Of a stretch of 64,000 nucleotides of DNA, positions 46,949-58,399 are shown piece by piece (position 1 is the first letter of the stretch; the number at the start of each line of letters is the position of its first letter). Position numbers and translations under genes: made by a program. Source of the stretch: Marinactinospora thermotolerans DSM 45154 (GTDB lineage: Bacteria; Actinomycetota; Actinomycetes; Streptosporangiales; Streptosporangiaceae); NCBI RefSeq assembly GCF_900167435.1, contig NZ_FUWS01000011.1, positions 124,001 to 188,000 on the forward strand, given 5' to 3'. The notes below the pieces were generated by a model, which saw only the letters and a program-made list of their open reading frames with translations, was not told the DNA's origin and made no database searches.

Positions 46949-47550
46949 CTGTTCCCGTGCGGGAGCGGGGGCATCCGGTTTCTCGGAAAACCCCTCCCTC
47001 GTGCCGTCACTCTCGGTTACCATCGGTGTGTCACCGCGGGAAATCCCCCGGACTCCGGTAAAGCGCCGGAGGACGACGTGGGGCCTTCTGCCCGCGAGTG
47101 AGGTGTGGTCCCGTGCCGCCCTGTCCTGCGGGCGGACCGATCCCTTGTGCATGATGCCGGCCTGGGCCGGCCCGTGTCCGTCCTCCGTCGTCCCGGTCGT
47201 CCGGTGTGCCGTGCCCTCTGCCGGCCGCCGATGTCCTCGTTTCCGTGTTCCCGGATACCGTGTGCCGTCCCGCGGAGCCGGGGTTAAGGCATGTCCCTAA
47301 CCCGGCGCCGCGGCGTTTCGCCATGCCCAAAGACCGCTTCGCGGCTTTCCTCCCTGGGGTCCGTGCGCTCTCGCGCCAGGGGCGGTCCGGCCGCTCCGTT
47401 GTGGGTCGGACGGGCCTCTCCCGGCCGGTGGCACGGGGTTTCACGGCCCGAGAGGGGGAGGGGTCCGCGCTCCTCACCGCCCGCGACGGTTCCAGCCTCC
47501 TGTCCGGAGAAGGCGCCGGAAAGTCGGAAAAATCAACCACTTCCATTTCG
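46949..47550. other. Gene-free interval after tRNA-Tyr
   Basis: About 600 bases with only short uninformative frames. An imperfect inverted repeat lies at 47277-47306 (GCCGGGGTTA and TAACCCGGC). No integrase or repeat of the tRNA 3' end was seen, so it does not look like an integrated element. Confidence 0.45.
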
Positions 47551-47580
47551 CGCCATTGTCAATTTCTTTGAACAATGGCG
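47551..47580. repeat. Inverted repeat upstream of the secreted-protein cluster
   Basis: CGCCATTGT and ACAATGGCG pair perfectly around a 12-base AT-rich loop. It lies 45 bases before a TTGACA, so it could be an operator or a weak terminator hairpin. Confidence 0.5.
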
Positions 47581-47624
47581 ACCAAATGAGCGAACCGGAC
47601 ATAATGATTTCTCGCTTTTGGGCT

Positions 47625-47653
47625 TTGACAAAATCCGGCCGGTGCTCAATGAT
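47625..47653 (+). promoter_or_regulatory. Candidate promoter of the secreted-protein cluster
   Basis: TTGACA (47625-47630), then 17 bases, then AATGAT (47648-47653). The -35 is perfect and the -10 is weak. It leaves an untranslated leader of about 70 bases before GTG 47732. Confidence 0.5.
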
Positions 47654-47731
47654 TACCGATGTCCGCCGCGATTGAGGGGCGCTGATCAACGCCCTGTCAC
47701 CCAACCTCGAATCGACTCTTCAGGGGTAATT

Positions 47732-47956
47732 GTGTTCAAGAAGTTCTCGGTTGTCGGTCTGATCGCCGGTGCGGCTCTCGGTTCGGTTCTGATGGCCGCC
47801 CCCGCCCACGCCGAAGACGACAACGACAACGCCCAGGTGGCCGCGGTCCAGCAGTGCAACAGCTCGATCAACGTCATCGGCATCCCGATCAACGCCCTGT
47901 CCAACCAGGAGATCGGCCAGTGCGTCAACGGTCCGCAGCAGACCGTGAACGACTAA
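47732..47956 (+). CDS. Small secreted protein, tandem paralogue 1
   Basis: A 74-aa precursor. The signal peptide is FKKFSVVGLIAGAALGSVLM with AHA cleavage after about residue 27. The mature part is about 47 residues with two cysteines: QQCNSSINVIGIPINALSNQ, then IGQCVNGPQQTVND. The mature sequence is hydrophobic in the centre and Asn/Gln-rich at the ends. Size and composition recall chaplins and rodlins of aerial hyphae, but I see no chaplin signature. Nearly the same mature sequence is repeated in the next two genes. Confidence 0.82.
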   Translation: MFKKFSVVGLIAGAALGSVLMAAPAHAEDDNDNAQVAAVQQCNSSINVIGIPINALSNQEIGQCVNGPQQTVND

Positions 47957-48012
47957 TAGTCCCTGAATTCTTTTTCTTTCCCTTTTCTCTTCTGGTGCAA
48001 GGAGTACCTTCC

Positions 48013-48231
48013 ATGCTTCGCAAGATCGCTGTTGCCGGCCTGCTCGCGGGTGCCGCCTTCGGTTTCGTCGCCGCCCCCGCCCACGCGGACGAGAGCAACA
48101 ACAACGGCCAGGTTGTCGCGCTCCAGCAGTGCAACAGCTCGATCAACGTCATCGGCGTTCCGGTCAACCTGCTGTCCAACCAGCCCATCGGCCAGTGCGT
48201 CAACGGTCCGCAGCAGACCGTCAACGACTAG
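48013..48231 (+). CDS. Small secreted protein, tandem paralogue 2
   Basis: A 72-aa precursor with the signal MLRKIAVAGLLAGAAFGFV and AHA cleavage. The mature part, QQCNSSINVIGVPVNLLSNQ then IGQCVNGPQQTVND, is nearly identical to paralogue 1, with both Cys conserved. GGAG lies ten bases before the ATG. It is 56 bases after the first gene and almost certainly on the same transcript. Confidence 0.84.
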   Translation: MLRKIAVAGLLAGAAFGFVAAPAHADESNNNGQVVALQQCNSSINVIGVPVNLLSNQPIGQCVNGPQQTVND

Positions 48232-48257
48232 TACGTACGACGGAAGGGACGCGCACC

Positions 48258-48587
48258 ATGCTGCGTAAGTTCGTCGTCGCCGGCCTGCTTGCCGGTGCCG
48301 CGCTCGGATTCGCCGCCGCGCCCGCGGCGGCCGACGGGCACACGTTCAACCAGAACGTCCAGGTGATCACGCTCCAGCAGTGCAACAGCTCGATCAACGT
48401 CGTCGGCGTTCCGGTCAACCTGCTGTCCAACCAGCCCATCGACCAGTGTGTCAACGGGCCGCAGCAGACCGTGACCGAGTCTGAGTCCGAGAAGAGCGAG
48501 TCCACCCCGGAGAAGCCCAAGGGCGGCTCCGAGACCGAGGAGCAGGCCGGTTCCGAGAAGGAGACCGACAAGCCCAGCGGTTACTGA
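48258..48587 (+). CDS. Small secreted protein, tandem paralogue 3 with acidic tail
   Basis: A 109-aa precursor with signal MLRKFVVAGLLAGAALGFA. The mature core, QQCNSSINVVGVPVNLLSNQ then IDQCVNGPQQTV, is shared with its neighbours. It is then followed by a 38-residue Glu/Ser/Lys-rich tail (ESEKSESTPEKPKGGSETEE) absent from the others, which may lengthen or anchor the protein. GGAAGGGA precedes ATG 48258. It is the last of the cluster; a hairpin follows. Confidence 0.84.
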   Translation: MLRKFVVAGLLAGAALGFAAAPAAADGHTFNQNVQVITLQQCNSSINVVGVPVNLLSNQPIDQCVNGPQQTVTESESEKSESTPEKPKGGSETEEQAGSEKETDKPSGY

Positions 48588-48838: not shown

Positions 48839-49378
48839 ATGAGGAGAACCCAAGTGACCGCCATTGGGGCGCTGTGCTCGCTGGTGCTGCTCGGTGGCTG
48901 TGGTGGACAGGAGGCCGCGGAACAGGAGCGCGACGAGGCCGTGCCCGAGGCTGCGGAGGAACCCGCGCCGCACCAGGGACACGGCCGTTCCGGTACGGCG
49001 CGCACCCCCGAGGACGACGCAGGACAGGGCGCCGGCGAGGTCTTCGTCTACAACACCTACCAGGCCGAGGAAGGGCGGGCGGATCGCGAGCCCGCGACGC
49101 TGACCGCCTCGGAGCACACCACGTTCCAGAACCTGGAGTGGACGTCGTGGGACGGCGCCTCCGCGACCGCCGAGGGGGAGATCCTCGGCACCTGGTGCCT
49201 GCCCGAGTGCCAGGACGACCCCTACGCGGCGACGATCACCCTCGTGGAGCCCGAGGAGGTCGACGGCACCCTCTACTACACGGGGTACACCGTCGAGTCC
49301 GAGGAGCTGCCCGAGGAGATGCGGGAGAAGATGGAGGAGGCCGACGACAGCGCTCTCATGCTGCCGTCCGCCTCCTGA
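48839..49378 (+). CDS. Putative lipoprotein
   Basis: A 179-aa exported protein. The N-terminus MRRTQVTAIGALCSLVLLGGC ends in lipobox LGGC (Cys about residue 21), written here to its final Cys for reading, so it should be lipid-anchored. A Glu/Pro-rich linker follows, and the rest is a small domain with two further Cys (WCLPEC) and several Tyr/Trp. I do not recognise the family. ATG 48839 is preceded by GGGAGG nine bases upstream. Confidence 0.8.
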   Translation: MRRTQVTAIGALCSLVLLGGCGGQEAAEQERDEAVPEAAEEPAPHQGHGRSGTARTPEDDAGQGAGEVFVYNTYQAEEGRADREPATLTASEHTTFQNLEWTSWDGASATAEGEILGTWCLPECQDDPYAATITLVEPEEVDGTLYYTGYTVESEELPEEMREKMEEADDSALMLPSAS

Positions 49379-49509
49379 TCCGGATTCGGATCGCGAACCG
49401 CCATCGACGCGGAAACCGCAGTTCAGCGGCCTTCGGGGAGAGGTTCCGCCGGGTCCCCGGGCCCGAATCGGGACACGGGTGCCGTGAGGAGTCCCTAGGC
49501 TGCTGAATT

Positions 49510-50253
49510 GTGGGTGATGACGCGGCTCAGATGACGCAGACCGGTCCGACGGACCCCGACCCGGCTGCGCTCCCACCCCGGCCAGGGGAGGGGGCGCTCG
49601 ACGACGGCCGCTCCGCGCCGCGGCACGGGCGTGCCGCGCTGCTGCGACTGGCCAGATGGTTCGAGGGCGCCGACCCCGAGGCGGCCCATCGGCTCTTCAC
49701 CGCGGCGTTCGCGCTGTACCCCGCCCGGCATCTGGAAGGGCAGGGGGAGGACACGGTGGCGGCCACCACGGGGTGGTGGGACGCCCCGCCCTCCGCCGGC
49801 GTCGCGGTCAGGTCCGCCCGGCGTTCCGCGCCCGGACCGGTCCACGACCACACCGAACAGCAGACGCGGTTGCGCGACGCGGCCGAGGCCGCGGCCCATT
49901 GGCGCCGCTCCGCGGCGCAGGAGGTGCGCGACCTCCTGGCCGAGCCCACCCGGGACGGCGACCGCCCGCAGTTGAGCGGGGCCGCCCTGGAGGTGCTCAT
50001 GGGCCTGCTCACCGCGGCGCTCGGCACGGACGACGCCGCGTCGGGGGCCGGGACCGCCGCCGACCTCGAACTCGACATCAGGCTGCGCGTCATCCCCGCC
50101 CCGGGAGCGACGCTGACGCTGCGCGAGGCGGGGGGCGAACTCGTGCTCCGTGACCTGAGCCTGCACGCGACCCGCTACGCCGGCGGTACGGACCCATCCG
50201 TGGAACCGGACTCCCCAACGGAGTCCTCCTCGGAACTGGCGCACCCCGCGTGA
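49510..50253 (+). pseudogene. jetA: Truncated Wadjet kleisin JetA (TIGR02677-type), C-terminal part only
   Basis: The 247 residues match only the C-terminal region of the TIGR02677/JetA kleisin, normally about 500 aa: RLARWFEGADPEAAHRLFTAAFALYPARHL, then GWWDAPPS and a final beta-rich part; key words are given in pieces of RLARWFEGADP, AHRLFTAAF and ALYPARHL. A stop (49504-49506) lies just before GTG 49510, and upstream is the unrelated lipoprotein, so the N-terminal half that binds the SMC neck is missing. No ribosome binding site is well placed; ATG 49531 is an alternative. Probably decayed, unless the C-terminal domain alone has a new role. Confidence 0.75.
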
Positions 50254-50335
50254 CGTCACCGCGGGCGAGACCCGCGAGGCGGGGGCGGGCGAGCGGAGAC
50301 GGCCCGGTGTCCGGGGGAAGAGGGATCGAGGGAAG

Positions 50336-51571
50336 GTGGCGGCGGCCGTGGCGGCCAAGGACGACATCGCACTCATCGTGGAGCGGCAGACGGCGGCCCG
50401 GCGGCTCCTCGCCGACCCCCTGGTGACCGCTCACCGTCATCCCGAGGACTTCACGCTGGTCAGCGCCCACTCGGAGTGGCTGGTCCAGCGTTTCCAGCGG
50501 GTTCTCGGCTACCGCCTGGTCGTGGCCGCCGACCACGCCCGACTGGTCAAGAGCGGAATCCACGACGCGGTGGTGACCCCGCTGGTCCGCGACAGCGGTG
50601 CGGAGTTCACCCCCCGCTCCTACGCCTACCTCGCGCTCGCGCTCGCCGCGCTCGTCGACGCGCCGCCCGTGGTGCGACTGGCCGAACTGGCGGCGTGGGT
50701 GCGGGAGGCGGCGGTGGAGGCGGGCCTGGACCTGGACCCCGCGGACCGCGCCGCCGAACGGAGGGCGTTCACCGCGGCGTTGCGGGTCCTGTCCCGTCGG
50801 GGGGTGGTCGGCGAACGGGACGGTTCGCTCGCCGGCTACGCGGCGGACGGTGAACACGAGGTCCGGTTGGAGGTCCGCGCCGACATCGCGCGCAGGGTCG
50901 TCGCCCATCCCCCGCACGCGGTCGAGGAACCGGACGTGTTCCTGGCCGAGGCGGCGCGCGACGACGCGGCCGGCGACCCGCACAACGCCGAACTCACGAT
51001 CCGCCGCCGGCTCGCCGAGACCGCGGTGCTCTACCGCGACGACCTTCCCGCCCCGCAGCGTGTCTGGCTGGCCCACCACCAGTGGCGGGCGGTGGCCGAG
51101 CTCGGTGAGCTCCTCGGCTGCGACGCCGAGATCCGGGCCGAGGGGATCGCGCTGGTGCTGCCCCGGGACGGGACGCAGGACGGCGGCTGGGCGGGACGGT
51201 CCGCCGTGTTCCCGGGGCCGGGCCCGGTCGGCCGGGCCGCGCTGCTGCTGATCGGCCGGCTCGCGGCGCTCCTGCGCCCCGAGCCCGGCTCGCGCGGACC
51301 CGTCGAGATCCCCGCCGACCTGCTCAGCGCCCAGCTCGCCGACCTCCTCGACGAGGAGGACGCCGCGCGCTACTGGCCCCGCGCCGCCGTGGGCTGCCCG
51401 CCCGATCCCGGGGACGTGGCCGCGCGGGTCCTGGCGCTGTTGGGTGACGCGCGGCTGGTGGACCGCCCCGACCCGGGTCCCTCCCAGCTCGACGGGTGGA
51501 GGCTGCTCCCCGCAGCCGCCCGTTACGCCTCCTCGCCCCGCGAGTCCGGGACCGGGGAGGCCGACCGGTGA
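50336..51571 (+). CDS. jetB: Wadjet KITE-type subunit JetB (TIGR02678 family)
   Basis: A 411-aa protein matching the TIGR02678 family, the JetB (MksE-like) subunit of Wadjet SMC complexes. Visible features: ERQTAARRLLADPLVTA near the N-terminus, TPRSYAYLALALAALVDA, RRAFTAALRVLSRRGVV (winged-helix region) and ETAVLYRDDLPAPQRVWLAHHQ. The length is normal and the frame intact. GTG 50336 is preceded by GAGGGAAGG. It starts 82 bases after the jetA remnant. In a complete system it would bind JetA and DNA. Confidence 0.85.
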   Translation: MAAAVAAKDDIALIVERQTAARRLLADPLVTAHRHPEDFTLVSAHSEWLVQRFQRVLGYRLVVAADHARLVKSGIHDAVVTPLVRDSGAEFTPRSYAYLALALAALVDAPPVVRLAELAAWVREAAVEAGLDLDPADRAAERRAFTAALRVLSRRGVVGERDGSLAGYAADGEHEVRLEVRADIARRVVAHPPHAVEEPDVFLAEAARDDAAGDPHNAELTIRRRLAETAVLYRDDLPAPQRVWLAHHQWRAVAELGELLGCDAEIRAEGIALVLPRDGTQDGGWAGRSAVFPGPGPVGRAALLLIGRLAALLRPEPGSRGPVEIPADLLSAQLADLLDEEDAARYWPRAAVGCPPDPGDVAARVLALLGDARLVDRPDPGPSQLDGWRLLPAAARYASSPRESGTGEADR

Positions 51572-51752
51572 GAGGCCGATCACACGTGGGCCGCGTCGGG
51601 CCCCGGGCGCGGACGTCACCACGGCGGATGGGACGGGACGTGCCGGTGCGCGCCCGGCGCGCACCGGGGATCCGGGACAATGGCAGTGCCGCCCGCGCAC
51701 GGCGATCCCGGCGCGGCGGCGCGGCTGGTCGGTACAGAGCGGAGGGCGGTCG

Positions 51753-54700
51753 ATGAGCGACGCGGGTCACCCCGAGACGACACCTGCGCGGACCGCCGAC
51801 CCCCATCGCTATCGACTCAACCGGGCCGGCATCCACAACGTCTGGCAGTACGACGACCACGTCTTCGAGTTCGCCGAGGGACGGCTGCTGTTGCGCGGCC
51901 GCAATGGCGCGGGGAAGTCCAAGGCGCTGGAGATGCTGCTGCCGTTCCTGCTCGACGGCGACGCCCGCCGCCTCGACACCACGGGGACCAGCCGGACCAG
52001 TCTGCGCTGGCTCATGCTGGGCGGACAGACCGCCTCCGGTGAGGACGATGGGCGGGACGAGGGCGCGCACACGACCGCCCTCGGTTACCTGTGGGTCGAG
52101 TTCGCCGGACAGGACGACGAGGAACGGCCGCGCCGCCGCACGCTCGGCGCGGCCGTCGCGGCCTCCCCCGACGACGCCGACGCCAGGTGCGTCTTCTTCG
52201 TCACCGACCGGTCCGTCGGCACCGACCTCGATCTCGTCGTCGAGGGACGCCCCCTGCCCATCGAACGTCTGCGCGCCGAGGTCGGGCCCGAGAACTGCTA
52301 CGACGCCGCAACGGCCTACCGGGCCCGGGTCATGGACGAGCTCTTCGGCATCGACGACCCCACCCGCTACCGCAACCTCGTCCACCTGCTGTACCGCCTG
52401 CGCCGGCCCACCGTGGGCGAGCGTCTGGAGGCGGGGGAACTCGTCTCGGTCCTCGCCGAGGCGCTCCCGCCCATGGACGAGCGGGTACTCGACGAGGTCG
52501 CCCGCAACATCTCCGACCTCGACTCCGCCCGCGCCCGCCTGGCGGTGCTGCGCTCGGCGAAGGAGGGCGTCACCGGGTTCCTGGACGACTACCGCCGCTA
52601 CCTGCACGGCGCGCTGCGGGCCCAGGCCGCCGCCGTGCGGGCCCAGATCGACGACCACGCCCGTCGGGACGCCGAGGTCGCCCGGCTCGCCACGGAACTG
52701 ACCGATCTGGTGGCGGCCGAGGCCGAAGTGCAGGAGGAGCGCGACCGCGCGCGTCGCACGCGCGACACCGCCGCCGCCGACGCCGCCACGCTCGGTTCGA
52801 GCGAGCCCGGCTCGCCTCCCCCCGAGGAAGGGGAGCGCCAGGCCCGCTACGCGGCGGTCGTCGCCTATATCCGGGCCGCCGAGTCCGCCTGGGCCGCCGC
52901 GGGCCACGCCCTCACCAACGAGCGCAACGCCGCGGCACAGCTCGCCTCCGGCATCGCCGGCATCGAGCGTCGGATCACCGCGATGCGCGCCCCGCACGCC
53001 GAGGCGACGGCCCTCGCCCGGGCCGCGGGGGCGCCTCCCGGCGCGTTGGGGGAGATCCCGCAGGTCATGGCCGTCACCCTGGCCCCGCGCGAGAGCACGA
53101 CCCATGTCGACCTCGAAGGTCTGGAACAGGCCGTCGAGCGCGAACCGGTCCAGGGGATCGACATCGCGCGTCTGCGCGGACGCCTGGCCGAACTGCACGA
53201 CCGCCTCACCGCGGTCGACGACTGGGCCGCCCGCCGGACGGCCGCCGCGACCGCCCTGTACGACCGCACGGTCGAGTTGGCCGAGGCCGAACGCCGGGCG
53301 AGCGCGCTCGCCGACGAGGCCGAGTGGAGCGACGGGCACCTGGAGCGGGCTCTTGAACGCGAGCGCGCCGCCATCGAGGCCGTGCGGGCGGCCAGCGCCG
53401 CGCACGCGGCGGCGGTGCGCGAGTGGAGCGCCGCGTTGCGCGACGCCGTGGCCGACGCCGGCGGCGACCTCTCCGGGCCCCTCGCCGACCTGGAACAGCG
53501 GGTCGAGCTCCCCCTCGACGAGGAGCTGCGGGTGCTGGACATCGAGGTGCCGGCGGAGGTCATCCGGCACGCCCACGAGATCGTCGCCCCCCTCGTCTCC
53601 GAGCTGCGGGCCCGGCGCGACACCGCCGTCGGCGAGGAGCGCGAGCTCGTGACCGAGCTGGACGAACTCTCCGAGCGCCGCAAGGCCCTCGAAAACGGGC
53701 ATCTGGCCCCGCCGCCGGCCTGGGCCACCGCCGAGCGCGGGGACGCCCGGGGCGTCGCCTTCCACCTCGCGGTGGACTTCGCCGACCACCTCTCCGCCGC
53801 CGAACGCGCGGGACTGGAGGCCGCGCTTGAGGCCAGCGGGATCCTGTCCGGTTGGATCGCCGCCGACGGCACGGTCGTCGACCCCGCGACCCGTGATCTC
53901 GTCCTGCGCCCCACGGCGCCGACCGCCGGACGCACGCTCCTCGACGCGCTCACCCCGGTCGAGGTGCCCGGGTCCGGCGTGACCACCGCGACCGTCGCCG
54001 CGCTGCTGCGGGCGGTCAGGCTGGCCGAGGCCGACGAGAGCGGGGCGGCCCCGACCGGTGACCACGACGCCTCCGGCGGGATGGTGGGGACCGACGGGCG
54101 CTGGCGGCTCGGCGTCGCGGGCGGGGCGCACCACAAGGACCGCGCCGAGTACATCGGCGAGGCCGCGCGGGCCGACGCCCACGACCGCCTCCTGGCCAAC
54201 ATCGACCGGCGTATCGCGATCGCCGAGGCGTTGCTGGCCGAGGCGGGAGAGCGCAGGGGAGCCGTCGAGGAACGGCACGAGGCATTGGTGCGGGTGGCCC
54301 GCTCCGTCCCCTCGGGCGCGGGGCTGGCCGCGGCCTGGGCCGCCCTCGACAACGCCCGCGCCTGGCTGGTGACCGCCAACCGCGACGCCGCGGCGGCCCG
54401 CCGCGCCGCCGACACGGCCCGCGCCACCGTGCTGGAGCTGCGCGCCGAGGTCGCCGCGCACGCGCGCGAGCACGTCCTGCCCGAGGGGCGCGAGGAGCTC
54501 GTGGCGATCCTGTCGGCGTTGGCGCGGCTGCGGGTCCACGTCGCGGCGGCCTACCGCGACCTCGGCGACATCGCCGGACGCCTGGAGGACTACCACCGCC
54601 ACGTCGCCGAGTGGGAACGCGCCCGCGCCGATCGGGTGGTGGCCGAGGACGTGCGCACCGCGGCCATCGGCGACATGATCACGGTGCGTCGCGAGACCGA

Positions 54701-56114
54701 GCTCACCGACCGCGCACGCTCCGCCTCCCCCGAGCAGATCGGCAGCGCCGTCGCCGAGGTGCGGGCCCGCATGGACCAGGCGGCCCAGCGGCTGCCCGAA
54801 CTCGAACGGGCCGCGCGCGAGGCCAGGGACGAACGTGTCGCGGCCGAGACACGCCACGCCACGGCCCTGCGCGAGCGGGTCGAGCAGGCCGAACGCGTCC
54901 TGGCCGCGGGCGACCGGTTGCGGGCGATGCTCTGCACGGCCGACGGCCACGTCGACTCCGAGCTGCTCGTCGCGGCGGGCCTCGACGACGCCGACGACGA
55001 CTCCGGCCTGCGCGCCGCGCTGGACGCCCTCAGCGCGGCCGAAGCCGCCGCGCGCGCCGGAGAGGAGGGGGAGGAGGACGTCGACGCGCGGGTGCGCGCG
55101 CTCGACACGCTCGTCACGGTCCTGGAGGAACGGCTCGACCCCGACCCGGCCCACGACGTCGACAACAGCGGCATTCTGCGCAGCCGCGAGGAACTCCACC
55201 GCCTGCTGGCCGGCGGAGGCGCCGCCGCGGCGCGCACCGAGCTGACCGAGCCGGCCGGCGTCAAACGGCTCACCGTCCACGATGACGAGGGAGCCCACGA
55301 CATCACCGCCTACGCGGCCCGGCTCGACACGGCCATCGCCGAGGCCGAGGAGACGGCGGCGCTGCGCGAGGAGGAGGCGTTCGAACGCCACCTCCTCGGT
55401 GAGCTCGCCGCCCACCTCTCCCGCCAGATCTCCGAGGCCCGCGAGCTCATCGCGACGATGAACGAGGTGCTCGGCGACGTCACCACGTCGCAGGGGCTGG
55501 GGGTGCGCCTGGAATGGGCGCTCGCCCCCGACGCCGACGAGGACGTCAGCGCGGTCGTGCCGCTGCTGCAACGCCCGGCGGAGAAACGCACCAGGGTCGA
55601 GACCACCCGACTGCGTGACGCGCTGCGCCGCTGCATCGAGGCCATCCGCCGCCTCGACCCGACCGCGGCCAACGGGGCGCAACTTCGCGCCGCGCTGGAC
55701 TACCGCTCCTGGTTCGCCTTCACGGTCTATGTGACCGACGCCGCCCACCCGGGGCGGGAGCGCCGGCTCACCCACCGCACCGCGCTCAGCCAGGGCGAGC
55801 AGCGCGTCATCGCCTATCTGGTGCTCTTCGCGGCGGCCGCGGCCCGGTTCGGGGCGCTCGCGCCGCACGCCCCCCGGCTGATCCTTCTCGACGACGCCTT
55901 CGCCAAGGTCGACGAGCCCACGCACGGGCGTCTGCTCGGGCTGCTCGTCCAGCTCGACCTCGACTTCGTGTTGACCTCGGAACGTCTGTGGGGATGCTTC
56001 CCGAGTGTGCCGAGCCTGCACGTCTACGAGTGTCTGCGCGATCCCGCGGTCCCGGGGATCGCGACGCTGCACTTCACCTGGGACGGCACCCGCCGGCGCC
56101 TCGTCGGGGTCTGA
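51753..56114 (+). CDS. jetC: Wadjet SMC-like ATPase JetC (TIGR02680 family)
   Basis: A 1453-aa MukB/MksB-like SMC protein of the TIGR02680 family. The N-terminal head has RGRNGAGKSKALEMLLPFLLDG (Walker A RNGAGKS at about residue 53). Long Glu/Arg/Ala-rich coiled coils surround a hinge in the middle. The C-terminal head has SQGEQRVIAY (signature) and LILLDDAFAKVDEPTHGRL (Walker B). ATG 51753 follows GGAGGG. It stands 181 bases after jetB, a looser spacing than the overlapping genes of typical Wadjet operons. It looks intact, although its kleisin partner is truncated. Confidence 0.9.
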   Translation: MSDAGHPETTPARTADPHRYRLNRAGIHNVWQYDDHVFEFAEGRLLLRGRNGAGKSKALEMLLPFLLDGDARRLDTTGTSRTSLRWLMLGGQTASGEDDGRDEGAHTTALGYLWVEFAGQDDEERPRRRTLGAAVAASPDDADARCVFFVTDRSVGTDLDLVVEGRPLPIERLRAEVGPENCYDAATAYRARVMDELFGIDDPTRYRNLVHLLYRLRRPTVGERLEAGELVSVLAEALPPMDERVLDEVARNISDLDSARARLAVLRSAKEGVTGFLDDYRRYLHGALRAQAAAVRAQIDDHARRDAEVARLATELTDLVAAEAEVQEERDRARRTRDTAAADAATLGSSEPGSPPPEEGERQARYAAVVAYIRAAESAWAAAGHALTNERNAAAQLASGIAGIERRITAMRAPHAEATALARAAGAPPGALGEIPQVMAVTLAPRESTTHVDLEGLEQAVEREPVQGIDIARLRGRLAELHDRLTAVDDWAARRTAAATALYDRTVELAEAERRASALADEAEWSDGHLERALERERAAIEAVRAASAAHAAAVREWSAALRDAVADAGGDLSGPLADLEQRVELPLDEELRVLDIEVPAEVIRHAHEIVAPLVSELRARRDTAVGEERELVTELDELSERRKALENGHLAPPPAWATAERGDARGVAFHLAVDFADHLSAAERAGLEAALEASGILSGWIAADGTVVDPATRDLVLRPTAPTAGRTLLDALTPVEVPGSGVTTATVAALLRAVRLAEADESGAAPTGDHDASGGMVGTDGRWRLGVAGGAHHKDRAEYIGEAARADAHDRLLANIDRRIAIAEALLAEAGERRGAVEERHEALVRVARSVPSGAGLAAAWAALDNARAWLVTANRDAAAARRAADTARATVLELRAEVAAHAREHVLPEGREELVAILSALARLRVHVAAAYRDLGDIAGRLEDYHRHVAEWERARADRVVAEDVRTAAIGDMITVRRETELTDRARSASPEQIGSAVAEVRARMDQAAQRLPELERAAREARDERVAAETRHATALRERVEQAERVLAAGDRLRAMLCTADGHVDSELLVAAGLDDADDDSGLRAALDALSAAEAAARAGEEGEEDVDARVRALDTLVTVLEERLDPDPAHDVDNSGILRSREELHRLLAGGGAAAARTELTEPAGVKRLTVHDDEGAHDITAYAARLDTAIAEAEETAALREEEAFERHLLGELAAHLSRQISEARELIATMNEVLGDVTTSQGLGVRLEWALAPDADEDVSAVVPLLQRPAEKRTRVETTRLRDALRRCIEAIRRLDPTAANGAQLRAALDYRSWFAFTVYVTDAAHPGRERRLTHRTALSQGEQRVIAYLVLFAAAAARFGALAPHAPRLILLDDAFAKVDEPTHGRLLGLLVQLDLDFVLTSERLWGCFPSVPSLHVYECLRDPAVPGIATLHFTWDGTRRRLVGV

Positions 56115-56296
56115 CCCTCCGCCGCCGGCCTCCTCGAAGGGGTGTCCGCGGCCGCCCTCGGCCGCGGGCACGGACTCCTTCCCGGTCAGCGGCGTGGAGA
56201 CGGCGGGCGCCCGAACGGCTTCACGCGGACAGGGCGGAAAATTCGTACATCAGGCTCTACTCTGCAAAGACGAAGTCGAGATACGGAGCGGGTGTG

Positions 56297-58399
56297 GTGA
56301 CGACCGTGACGTCGGCCGATACAGCGTTCACCGGACGGGCTCCACGGTGGCGGGAGAGCGGGGCCGGCCCCGAGGCCTCGCTCCGAGAGCGTCTCGCCCA
56401 CTCGGGGCTCGACCACGAGGCCCGGCAGTGGGTCGTCGCGGCCCTGCTCGGGGACGAGGCGCTGGCCGCCCGGACCCGGGGCGAGCAGATCGAGGTCCCC
56501 GATCCGGGCGGTCCCGCTCCGGCCGGGAACCGCCCGCGGCGCGGGTTCCTGGGCAGGGTCGAGGTCCAGGGTTTTCGCGGCATCGGCCGCTCCTCCGCGC
56601 TGGAGTTCCCACCGGGGCCCGGCCTGACCGTCATCGTCGGGCGCAACGGTTCGGGCAAGTCCAGCTTCGCCGAGGCGATCGAGGCCGCCCTCACCGGCCG
56701 CAACCTGCGGTGGGACGCGATGCCCACGGCGTGGCGCGACGGCTGGCGCAACCTCCACTTCGACGACCGCACCGAGGTCAGCGTCGACCTGTACCTGTCG
56801 GGGGAGGAGCACCCGACCCGGGTCACGCGCACCTGGACGGGCGACAGCGTGCGTTCGGCGCGCGGTCGGGTCGTCCTGCCCTCGGGCGAGACCGTTCGGC
56901 TCGGGGACCTGGGGTGGGGTGAGGAGCTCGTCCGCTACCGCCCCTTCCTGTCCTACGACGAGCTCGGCCGGACCGTCACCGGGCGCGCGGCCGAGCTCTA
57001 CGACACCCTCACCGCGCTGCTGGGCCTGACCGAACTGGCCGAGGCCGAGCGGCGGCTGGCCAAGGCGTGCGACCGGCTGGCCAAACAGGAGAGCCGCCCC
57101 GGCCGCGACCTGCCCTACCTGGTCGAGCAGCTGAACGGAAGCGCCGACCCGCGTGCCCGGCGCGCCCTGGAGATCATCGGGTCCTCCTCGATCGACCTCG
57201 ACCGTCTCGCCTCGATCGCGGCGGACGACGGGCCCGCCGACCCCGCCCAGGAGGTCGTGCTGCGGCGGCTGCGCCGTCTCGCGGTCCCCGAGCGCGGTCT
57301 CATGACCGACGTGGTCAACGAGCTGCGCGGCGCGGCCATGGAACTCGCGATGGTCGCCGACAGCAAGGGGGCGCGGGCGCGCGGCCTCGTGGAGCTGCTG
57401 AACCAGGCGTTGGAACACCACCGGCGTCATCCGGCCGAGCGCGACTGCCCGGCCTGCGGCACCGGCGGGGCGCTGGGTCCCGACTGGGCGGACCGCGCCC
57501 GCGCGCAGATCGCGTCGCTGGAACCGGTGGCGGCCAGCGCCTCGGCGGCCTACGAACGCGCGGAGGCGGCCCGGGACCAGGCCCGCTTCCTCATGGCCCC
57601 GCCGCCCTCCTGGCTGCCGCCTGAGAGCGATCTGGGGCGCGTCTGGGCCGACTGGGCGGCCGGGGCCGCCATCACCGACCTCGGCGAGCTGGCCACCCAC
57701 ATCGAGGAGACGGGGCGGCGGTTGCGCTCCACGGCGATCGCCGCCCGCAAGGCCGCCACGGAGCGGCTCAACGACCCCTCCGACGGCTGGGCCGCGCTGG
57801 CCGAACAGCTCGCGGCCTGGACCGACGACGCGCGTGAGGCGGTGAAGGCGCGCGAGACCCTGGGACCGGCGGCGCGGGCGCTCGAGTGGTTCGCCGCGAC
57901 CGCCCGCGCGCTGCGCGAGGAACGGCTGCGGCCGCTCGCCGCGCACGCCGAACGGGTCTGGCGCCGGCTCCGGCAGGAGCGTCACATCGACCTTGAGGCG
58001 CTGCGCCTGGTGGGCAGGGGTGCCCAACGCCGCGTGGCCGTGGACGTCGCCGTCGACGGCGCCGATGTGTCGGGCACCTCCCCGGGGCTGCTCAGCCAGG
58101 GAGAGTTCCAGGCGCTGGCCCTGTCGATCTGCCTGCCGCGCACGCTCGCCCCGGGCAACCCCTTCGGTTTCCTCGTCCTCGACGACCCGGTGCAGGCGAT
58201 GGACACCGAGACCGTGGAGGGGCTGTCGGCGGTCCTCGCGGAAGTGGGGCGTCATCGCCAGCTCATCGTCTTCACCCATGACACCCGGCTGCCCGACGCG
58301 CTGCGCAGGCTCGGGCTGCCCGCCATGATCCGGACCATCCAGCGCGACGCGATGTCGAACGTGTGGATCGCGGATGAGGCCAGCTCAGTGGGGGTGTGA
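56297..58399 (+). CDS. RecF/SbcC-like AAA ATPase with CPxC hook
   Basis: A 700-aa SMC-related ATPase. Residues 1-80 form an unplaced N-terminal domain. The head follows with LGRVEVQGFRGIGRSSALEF, Walker A GRNGSGKSSFAEAIEAAL (about residue 117), a coiled coil with ERDCPACG (zinc-hook-like), signature LSQGEFQALALSICL, Walker B FLVLDDPVQAMD and a His in VFTHDTRLPDAL. It is distinct from JetC. It occupies the place where the nuclease JetD is expected. No nuclease or toprim domain is seen. Start GTG 56297 (or 56294). Confidence 0.82.
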   Translation: MTTVTSADTAFTGRAPRWRESGAGPEASLRERLAHSGLDHEARQWVVAALLGDEALAARTRGEQIEVPDPGGPAPAGNRPRRGFLGRVEVQGFRGIGRSSALEFPPGPGLTVIVGRNGSGKSSFAEAIEAALTGRNLRWDAMPTAWRDGWRNLHFDDRTEVSVDLYLSGEEHPTRVTRTWTGDSVRSARGRVVLPSGETVRLGDLGWGEELVRYRPFLSYDELGRTVTGRAAELYDTLTALLGLTELAEAERRLAKACDRLAKQESRPGRDLPYLVEQLNGSADPRARRALEIIGSSSIDLDRLASIAADDGPADPAQEVVLRRLRRLAVPERGLMTDVVNELRGAAMELAMVADSKGARARGLVELLNQALEHHRRHPAERDCPACGTGGALGPDWADRARAQIASLEPVAASASAAYERAEAARDQARFLMAPPPSWLPPESDLGRVWADWAAGAAITDLGELATHIEETGRRLRSTAIAARKAATERLNDPSDGWAALAEQLAAWTDDAREAVKARETLGPAARALEWFAATARALREERLRPLAAHAERVWRRLRQERHIDLEALRLVGRGAQRRVAVDVAVDGADVSGTSPGLLSQGEFQALALSICLPRTLAPGNPFGFLVLDDPVQAMDTETVEGLSAVLAEVGRHRQLIVFTHDTRLPDALRRLGLPAMIRTIQRDAMSNVWIADEASSVGV

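Follow-up and report, generated by a model that had tools for sequence, protein, structure and literature searches.

On current models, two SMC heads have to be bridged by a kleisin, and a Wadjet system needs a joined motor pair together with JetD. The window analyzed here, a stretch of 64,000 nucleotides from Marinactinospora thermotolerans DSM 45154 (contig NZ_FUWS01000011.1), contains a type II Wadjet-like jetABC locus that has no jetD and a markedly short jetA. This raises the question of whether the locus is a dying defense system or one that has been rewired for another role. In type I JetABC, two motors are joined via the kleisin N-terminus and JetD is the cutter, as described in PMC10586767. 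The features of the locus are summarized in Table 1.

Table 1. Features of the short locus and its immediate neighbors, in positions of the window.
Feature	Position	Strand	Description
Lipoprotein-like ORF	48839–49378	+	upstream neighbor of jetA; not proposed as a working part
Putative −10 element TAGGCT	49496–49501	+	separated by 8 bases from the GTG of short jetA
Short jetA	49510–50253	+	247 aa; only the C-terminal part of a DUF2397 kleisin
jetB	50336–51571	+	DUF2398, KITE subunit, full length
jetC	51750–56114	+	full-length SMC ATPase (TIGR02680) with Walker A, signature and Walker B motifs; start position uncertain
Rad50/SMC-like ATPase gene	56297–58399	+	CPxC zinc-hook motif; directly after jetC wherever contigs allow

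The original prediction described JetB and JetC as full length, JetA as reduced to about 247 C-terminal residues, with a stop codon and an unrelated lipoprotein gene upstream, and JetD as absent from the locus; all of this was borne out. JetB aligns with positions 1–371 of 376 in TIGR02678 (113 bits, just under the cut-off of 124.65) and scores 278 bits, above the cut-off, against DUF2398, which identifies it as a Wadjet JetB. JetC covers positions 1–1356 of 1356 in TIGR02680 with 841 bits, over the cut-off of 462.85 for a Wadjet JetC, and its nearest solved relative is the JetC of 9qe0 (E = 7.7e-59). The short JetA is aligned only with positions 291–490 of 494 in TIGR02677; its 69.9 bits stay below the cut-off of 165.85 that marks a full-length Wadjet kleisin, and about 290 of the 494 model positions are missing. 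Against Pfam DUF2397 it scores 103.5 bits, with a cut-off of 28.5, over positions 291–482 of 483, and the PADLOC JetA2 model gives 132 bits. An in-frame TGA stands just 5′ of the GTG start of jetA, and the lipoprotein-like ORF has no credible family match. No jetD lies near the locus, where a Wadjet operon would contain one. TIGR02679 matches the genome once, on another contig (C19:405998–407074), within a second JetABCD set that has a long JetA (C19:405998–414335). A tRNA-Pro called by ARAGORN inside jetC (52782–52857, minus strand) was rejected, as it is without Rfam support.

When aligned with five long JetA proteins, the short one starts just before their conserved RxxLLRLAxWF stretch, upstream of which it has only a short, variable N-terminus. 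Tblastn searches of the window and 29 related loci revealed no credible remnant of the JetA N-terminal part, the best match (E = 0.022) lying inside jetC, and no credible remnant of JetD. The sole strong matches to the JetD queries came from the first 142 residues of an over-long query ORF of genome G026, a part that overlaps with the end of jetC (3′). The AF2 model of the short JetA is poor (mean pLDDT 50.3), and a fold search with this model gave no match at E ≤ 0.001; a PDB profile search returned no chain at E ≤ 1 for the short JetA and none for JetB.

Related loci (L039–L066, n = 28) were drawn by the window JetB (20 loci) and the window JetC (8 loci). Eighteen of the JetB-drawn loci are labeled Nocardiopsis, one Streptomonospora and one Glycomyces fuscus, the last of which sits among Nocardiopsis in the JetC tree. 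The JetC-drawn loci come from eight genomes of the same family, each with another genus label, and their JetC proteins are 61–73% identical. jetA is present in 27 of the 28 loci (the contig of L050 begins inside the start of jetB) and is short in all 27, with 50–63% local identity. The kleisin N-terminal region that joins two motors is absent from the window and from these 27 loci. In 26 of these 27 jetA genes, only 12–34 open codons precede the conserved core; L063 has an open frame of 104 codons there, and the extension has no similarity to JetA. The loose gene spacing of the window was correctly described (82 bases between jetA and jetB and about 180 between jetB and jetC), but it is not a sign of decay because 15 of the 27 related loci holding both jetA and jetB have a 4-base overlap of the two.

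The start of the short gene is conserved as well. A block that spans it, roughly GGTCTYTAGTCTGCTGAGTTGTGGG, is common to the related loci. TANNNT precedes the GTG by 8 bases in the window and in 26 of 27 related loci, including L063, which the pattern missed and the promoter alignment left out, and which was read by eye. In L066, TANNNT lies 6 bases from the GTG and 9 from an ATG. The 8-base spacing suggests that the short jetA transcript may be leaderless; leaderless transcripts occur in actinobacteria. A sigma-70 consensus scan of positions 49300–49700 found no promoter.

Pairwise dN/dS was calculated for ten pairs of the Nocardiopsis group with our own Nei-Gojobori script. The values are low for the locus genes (jetA, 0.04–0.25; jetB, 0.21–0.39; jetC, 0.11–0.39; ATPase gene, 0.06–0.25), much like those of murB (0.13–0.32), and by these estimates purifying selection acts on all the locus genes. 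Evolution is faster in jetB and jetC than in the ATPase gene. For the intergeneric pair L059/L062, whose dS is less reliable, dN/dS is 0.42 for jetA, 0.36 for jetB, 0.48 for jetC, 0.34 for the ATPase gene and 0.35 for murB. All 25 short-type rows have the signature and Walker B motifs of JetC, and a strict pattern finds Walker A in 19 of the 25; four of the remaining six reflect the choice of start and two (L062 and L064) carry an A-to-T variant.

To place the short-type JetC, a midpoint-rooted tree, in which long branches are present, was built without L041, L044, L056 and L057 (frameshifted, split or partial) and L020 and L024 (partial). The 25 short-type rows form one clade with 100/100 support, apart from the 8 canonical rows. 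The nearest canonical JetCs are those of G026 and three Streptomyces plasmid sets, the grouping of these four being weakly supported (85/68). The closest intact set, on contig C371 of G026, has a JetC of 47% identity, a full JetA and JetD, and the Streptomyces plasmid sets L087 and L089 have JetA proteins of 541 and 539 aa plus JetD. Because these three sets have a long JetA and JetD, loss is the simpler direction of change, and the simpler reading is that the JetA N-terminal part and JetD were lost in the ancestor of the Nocardiopsis group. The second Wadjet sets of the carriers fall in other JetC branches, and their distribution is patchy. The plasmid collection yielded 6 records, all canonical-like and none with 80% of JetC covered at a single site, and the viral contigs yielded 7 pattern stretches and no relative. 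In a Streptomyces chartreusis plasmid Wadjet, JetA is annotated as two overlapping ORFs (L088:1384–3137) beside intact JetB, JetC and JetD.

The JetC neck was compared as the site at which a kleisin N-terminal part would bind. Identity of the neck blocks is 0.46 between the groups versus 0.75 within three canonical rows, and the short clade keeps 17 of 29 neck sites versus 225 of 266 head sites (Fisher p = 0.0016). Four distant canonical JetCs display the same trend (14 of 29 versus 172 of 266, p = 0.10). No mark of the lost contact was found in the neck that goes further than what these distant proteins show, and hence no sign that JetC has adapted to a half kleisin; either another partner binds there or the test is too weak.

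The original prediction stands for the jetABC set but did not include the ATPase gene, which is next to jetC in 26 of 26 testable loci. The order jetA-jetB-jetC-ATPase-L33-dn1-dn2-murB is kept in all 26 related loci that extend past jetC; dn1 and dn2 we take to be MaoC/HadAB-like genes, and the murB label is likewise our assumption. The contigs of L056 and L066 end before the genes 3′ of jetC, and the L066 genome has an ATPase-L33-murB block on another contig. The ATPase gene starts at a GTG at 56294 or 56297 (positions 56303–58399 were used in the analyses) and encodes about 700 aa that match SMC_N and AAA_23. Its ABC ATPase halves are arranged around a CxxC zinc hook, as in Rad50/SbcC, but it scores 35 bits against the curated cut-off of 700 for PRK03918. 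The best structural matches are Rad50 and SMC heads, with low TM-scores and from a model of moderate confidence (68.3). CPxC and Walker A are each present in 24 of 24 intact ORFs (L041 and L057 were left out), and DDPVQAMD in 26 of 26. The family models matched no nuclease domain in the ATPase, and no nuclease gene was recognized among the conserved neighbors of the short jetABC. The gap between jetC and the ATPase gene is roughly 50–490 bases in clean loci, and the latter has a possible start region of its own. Among 60 genomes, an ATPase of at least 69% identity and a short-type JetC of at least 61% are found in one and the same set of nine. As the clade is a single lineage, this co-occurrence does not decide the matter and may reflect shared descent alone.

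Farther out, 24 of the 28 related loci contain the upstream lipoprotein-like gene, which is missing from L060 and L064 despite sufficient contig. A relative of this gene (44%) is located at L090:10586–10921 in G026, about 2 kb from an ATPase relative, in a stretch without L33 or murB. Window positions 47291–48587 contain three tandem small secreted protein genes, presumably chaplin-like, and such repeats also occur in most related loci. The locus is bracketed by tRNA-Tyr (46825) on one side and tRNA-Thr (58515) and tRNA-Met (58697) on the other. As tRNA genes are a usual entry site for mobile DNA, the locus likely arrived as a putative island.

Six other genomes of the 60 contain a more distant ATPase (35–40%) without the short JetABC. 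Several of these ATPase genes overlap or abut a gene of about 125–132 aa that has no family match and is absent from the window locus. A distant ATPase gene followed by a gene of about 122–132 aa is found at L090:8480–8878, L092:8629–9027, L093:8379–8753, L094:5201–5578 and L096:9324–9692 (positions of the small gene), and four of these small proteins, that of L094 being left out, gave no match in Pfam, NCBIfam or PADLOC. The pair possibly constitutes a two-gene system of its own. Distant ATPase relatives also score against the defense models mad3 and LmuB, and in G043 the gene immediately before the relative (L093:2670–5939) matches PADLOC ZacC over nearly its full length with 1081 bits. In G023, another JetC is present as fragments, with an ATPase paralogue in pieces about 20 kb off (C1:4415094–4416015 and 4436004–4437912).

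Profile searches with TIGR02677 and TIGR02679 were applied to 18 genomes, 17 of which carry the short locus. Six of the 17 carriers have no TIGR02679 match (G010, G018, G023, G060, G061 and G067), and in four of these (G010, G018, G023 and G067) there is also no full-length TIGR02677 match, a count in which a strongly diverged N-terminal part could be missed because TIGR02677 fails to find even the short JetA of G018 and G067. Nocardiopsis alba DSM 43377 is without a JetD match. A long JetA is encoded elsewhere in 13 of the 17 carriers, always with E below 1e-36 against TIGR02677, and a JetD match is found elsewhere in 11. The complete genomes G060 and G061 contain long JetA genes (G060:C1:2528587–2529915 and G061:C1:2605309–2606739) with no TIGR02679 match in either genome; these perhaps represent other JetD-less sets or sets with a diverged JetD.

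We favor, with a probability of about 0.55, a non-cutting, single-motor DNA-folding complex that derives from type II Wadjet and has the ATPase in the same pathway. The shared short jetA, the synteny, the low dN/dS, the single JetC clade and the carriers without a JetD match lead us to regard the short locus, as read from its sequence, as an inherited and selected SMC complex that comes from type II Wadjet and has neither the nuclease nor the kleisin N-terminal half. Comparison of the loci points to an ancestor, shared by the Nocardiopsis group and related genera, that took over a type II Wadjet (JetABCD); JetD and the JetA N-terminal part were then lost, and the locus has been passed on vertically since, as an SMC complex of the chromosome. 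The C-terminal kleisin piece, the JetB KITE subunit and JetC dimers whose ATPase sites are intact would still assemble into an ATP-driven DNA-binding complex, in which the C-terminal piece would suffice to hold JetB and one JetC head. Without the N-terminal part and JetD, one would simply expect a single motor unable to cut. Such a motor could bind, loop or compact DNA, as MksBEF does in Pseudomonas aeruginosa, possibly by loop extrusion and in a chromosomal role, with the zinc-hook ATPase as a probable partner.

Among the other explanations, two turn on the missing parts. A dying Wadjet, or an assembly or frameshift error, would account for the absence of JetD and half of JetA and for the stop before the start, but it is barely tenable: the short JetA is ancestral to the whole clade, the same short form and start recur in 27 related loci, and the ATPase motifs are intact. 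Decay, which was the first option of the original prediction, is rejected in view of this conservation, the shared start site and the low dN/dS. Supply of the kleisin N-terminal part and JetD in trans by a second complete Wadjet is highly improbable. The search for the missing parts elsewhere in the genome did recover a full JetA and JetD at C19, an outcome of the kind that the original prediction had named as its refutation, and 13 of 17 carriers encode a long JetA elsewhere; however, the C19 set is not a general explanation because 4 of the 17 carriers have neither by profile search, which rules out general supply in trans, and the second sets lie on other JetC branches. The other option originally raised, that JetB and JetC persist for a non-cutting role, agrees with the lack of a JetD match in 6 of 17 carriers but has to be amended, as JetA too is a maintained gene.

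The remaining two concern what the locus does. JetABC and the ATPase may be independent neighbors, the ATPase having its own function and the shared site being inherited linkage. We consider this possible, though less than an even bet: the ATPase gene has its possible start region and variable gap after jetC, and its distant relatives reside in six genomes without short JetABC, several with their own small partner gene, but it follows jetC directly on the same strand in 26 of 26 testable loci and is confined with it to the same 9 of 60 genomes. Rather unlikely is a working anti-plasmid or anti-phage defense with another effector, in which JetABC would sense DNA and the ATPase or a nuclease encoded elsewhere would replace JetD, or in which DNA would be compacted and so silenced, in the manner of Smc5/6. 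The family from which the locus derives is defensive, distant ATPase relatives match mad3 and LmuB and one stands beside a ZacC-like gene, and the faster evolution of jetB and jetC is compatible with defense too. Against defense, the fixed chromosomal site by tRNA and L33 genes and the vertical pattern are unlike the patchy second Wadjet, and neither the conserved neighbors nor the ATPase offers a recognized nuclease.

A conserved, nuclease-free Wadjet derivative with half a kleisin is unusual, and its rewiring is supported. The open-access literature, to which the search was confined (subscription journals being outside its scope), yielded no description of a short-JetA or JetD-less type II set. 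A clade that has long kept JetABC with a C-terminal kleisin but lacks the nuclease offers a natural test of what a loop-extruding SMC complex requires. If the favored reading is true, it is also a dated, traceable case of a defense SMC turned resident chromosomal SMC. Only tentatively, and with the odds against it, the locus might represent a new kind of SMC complex: a Wadjet-derived, nuclease-free, single-motor open ring with a C-terminal-only kleisin and a Rad50-like ATPase, in standing chromosome maintenance of the Nocardiopsis lineage.

Compared with type II Wadjet (JetABCD2; TIGR02677, TIGR02678, TIGR02680 and TIGR02679), the locus shares full-length JetB and JetC and a JetA homologous over its C-terminal part, but it has half a JetA, no JetD, an extra ATPase gene and one inherited chromosomal place. 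MksBEF belongs to the type I or MukB-like side and has a full kleisin. Like the Wadjet-like, nuclease-free MksBEF of P. aeruginosa, the window locus has an SMC, a KITE and a kleisin without a nuclease; unlike it, the kleisin is C-terminal only, without the N-terminal part that joins two motors, and a Rad50-like ATPase lies next door. A passage from defense SMC to resident chromosomal SMC has to date only been proposed, for MukBEF and MksBEF, in section 7 of PMC10586767. The ATPase resembles Rad50/SbcC in its SMC_N and AAA_23 matches, its CPxC motif and its Rad50/SMC structural matches, and it differs in its length of only about 700 aa, in a score far below the curated cut-offs and in having no recognized Mre11/SbcD gene adjoining it.
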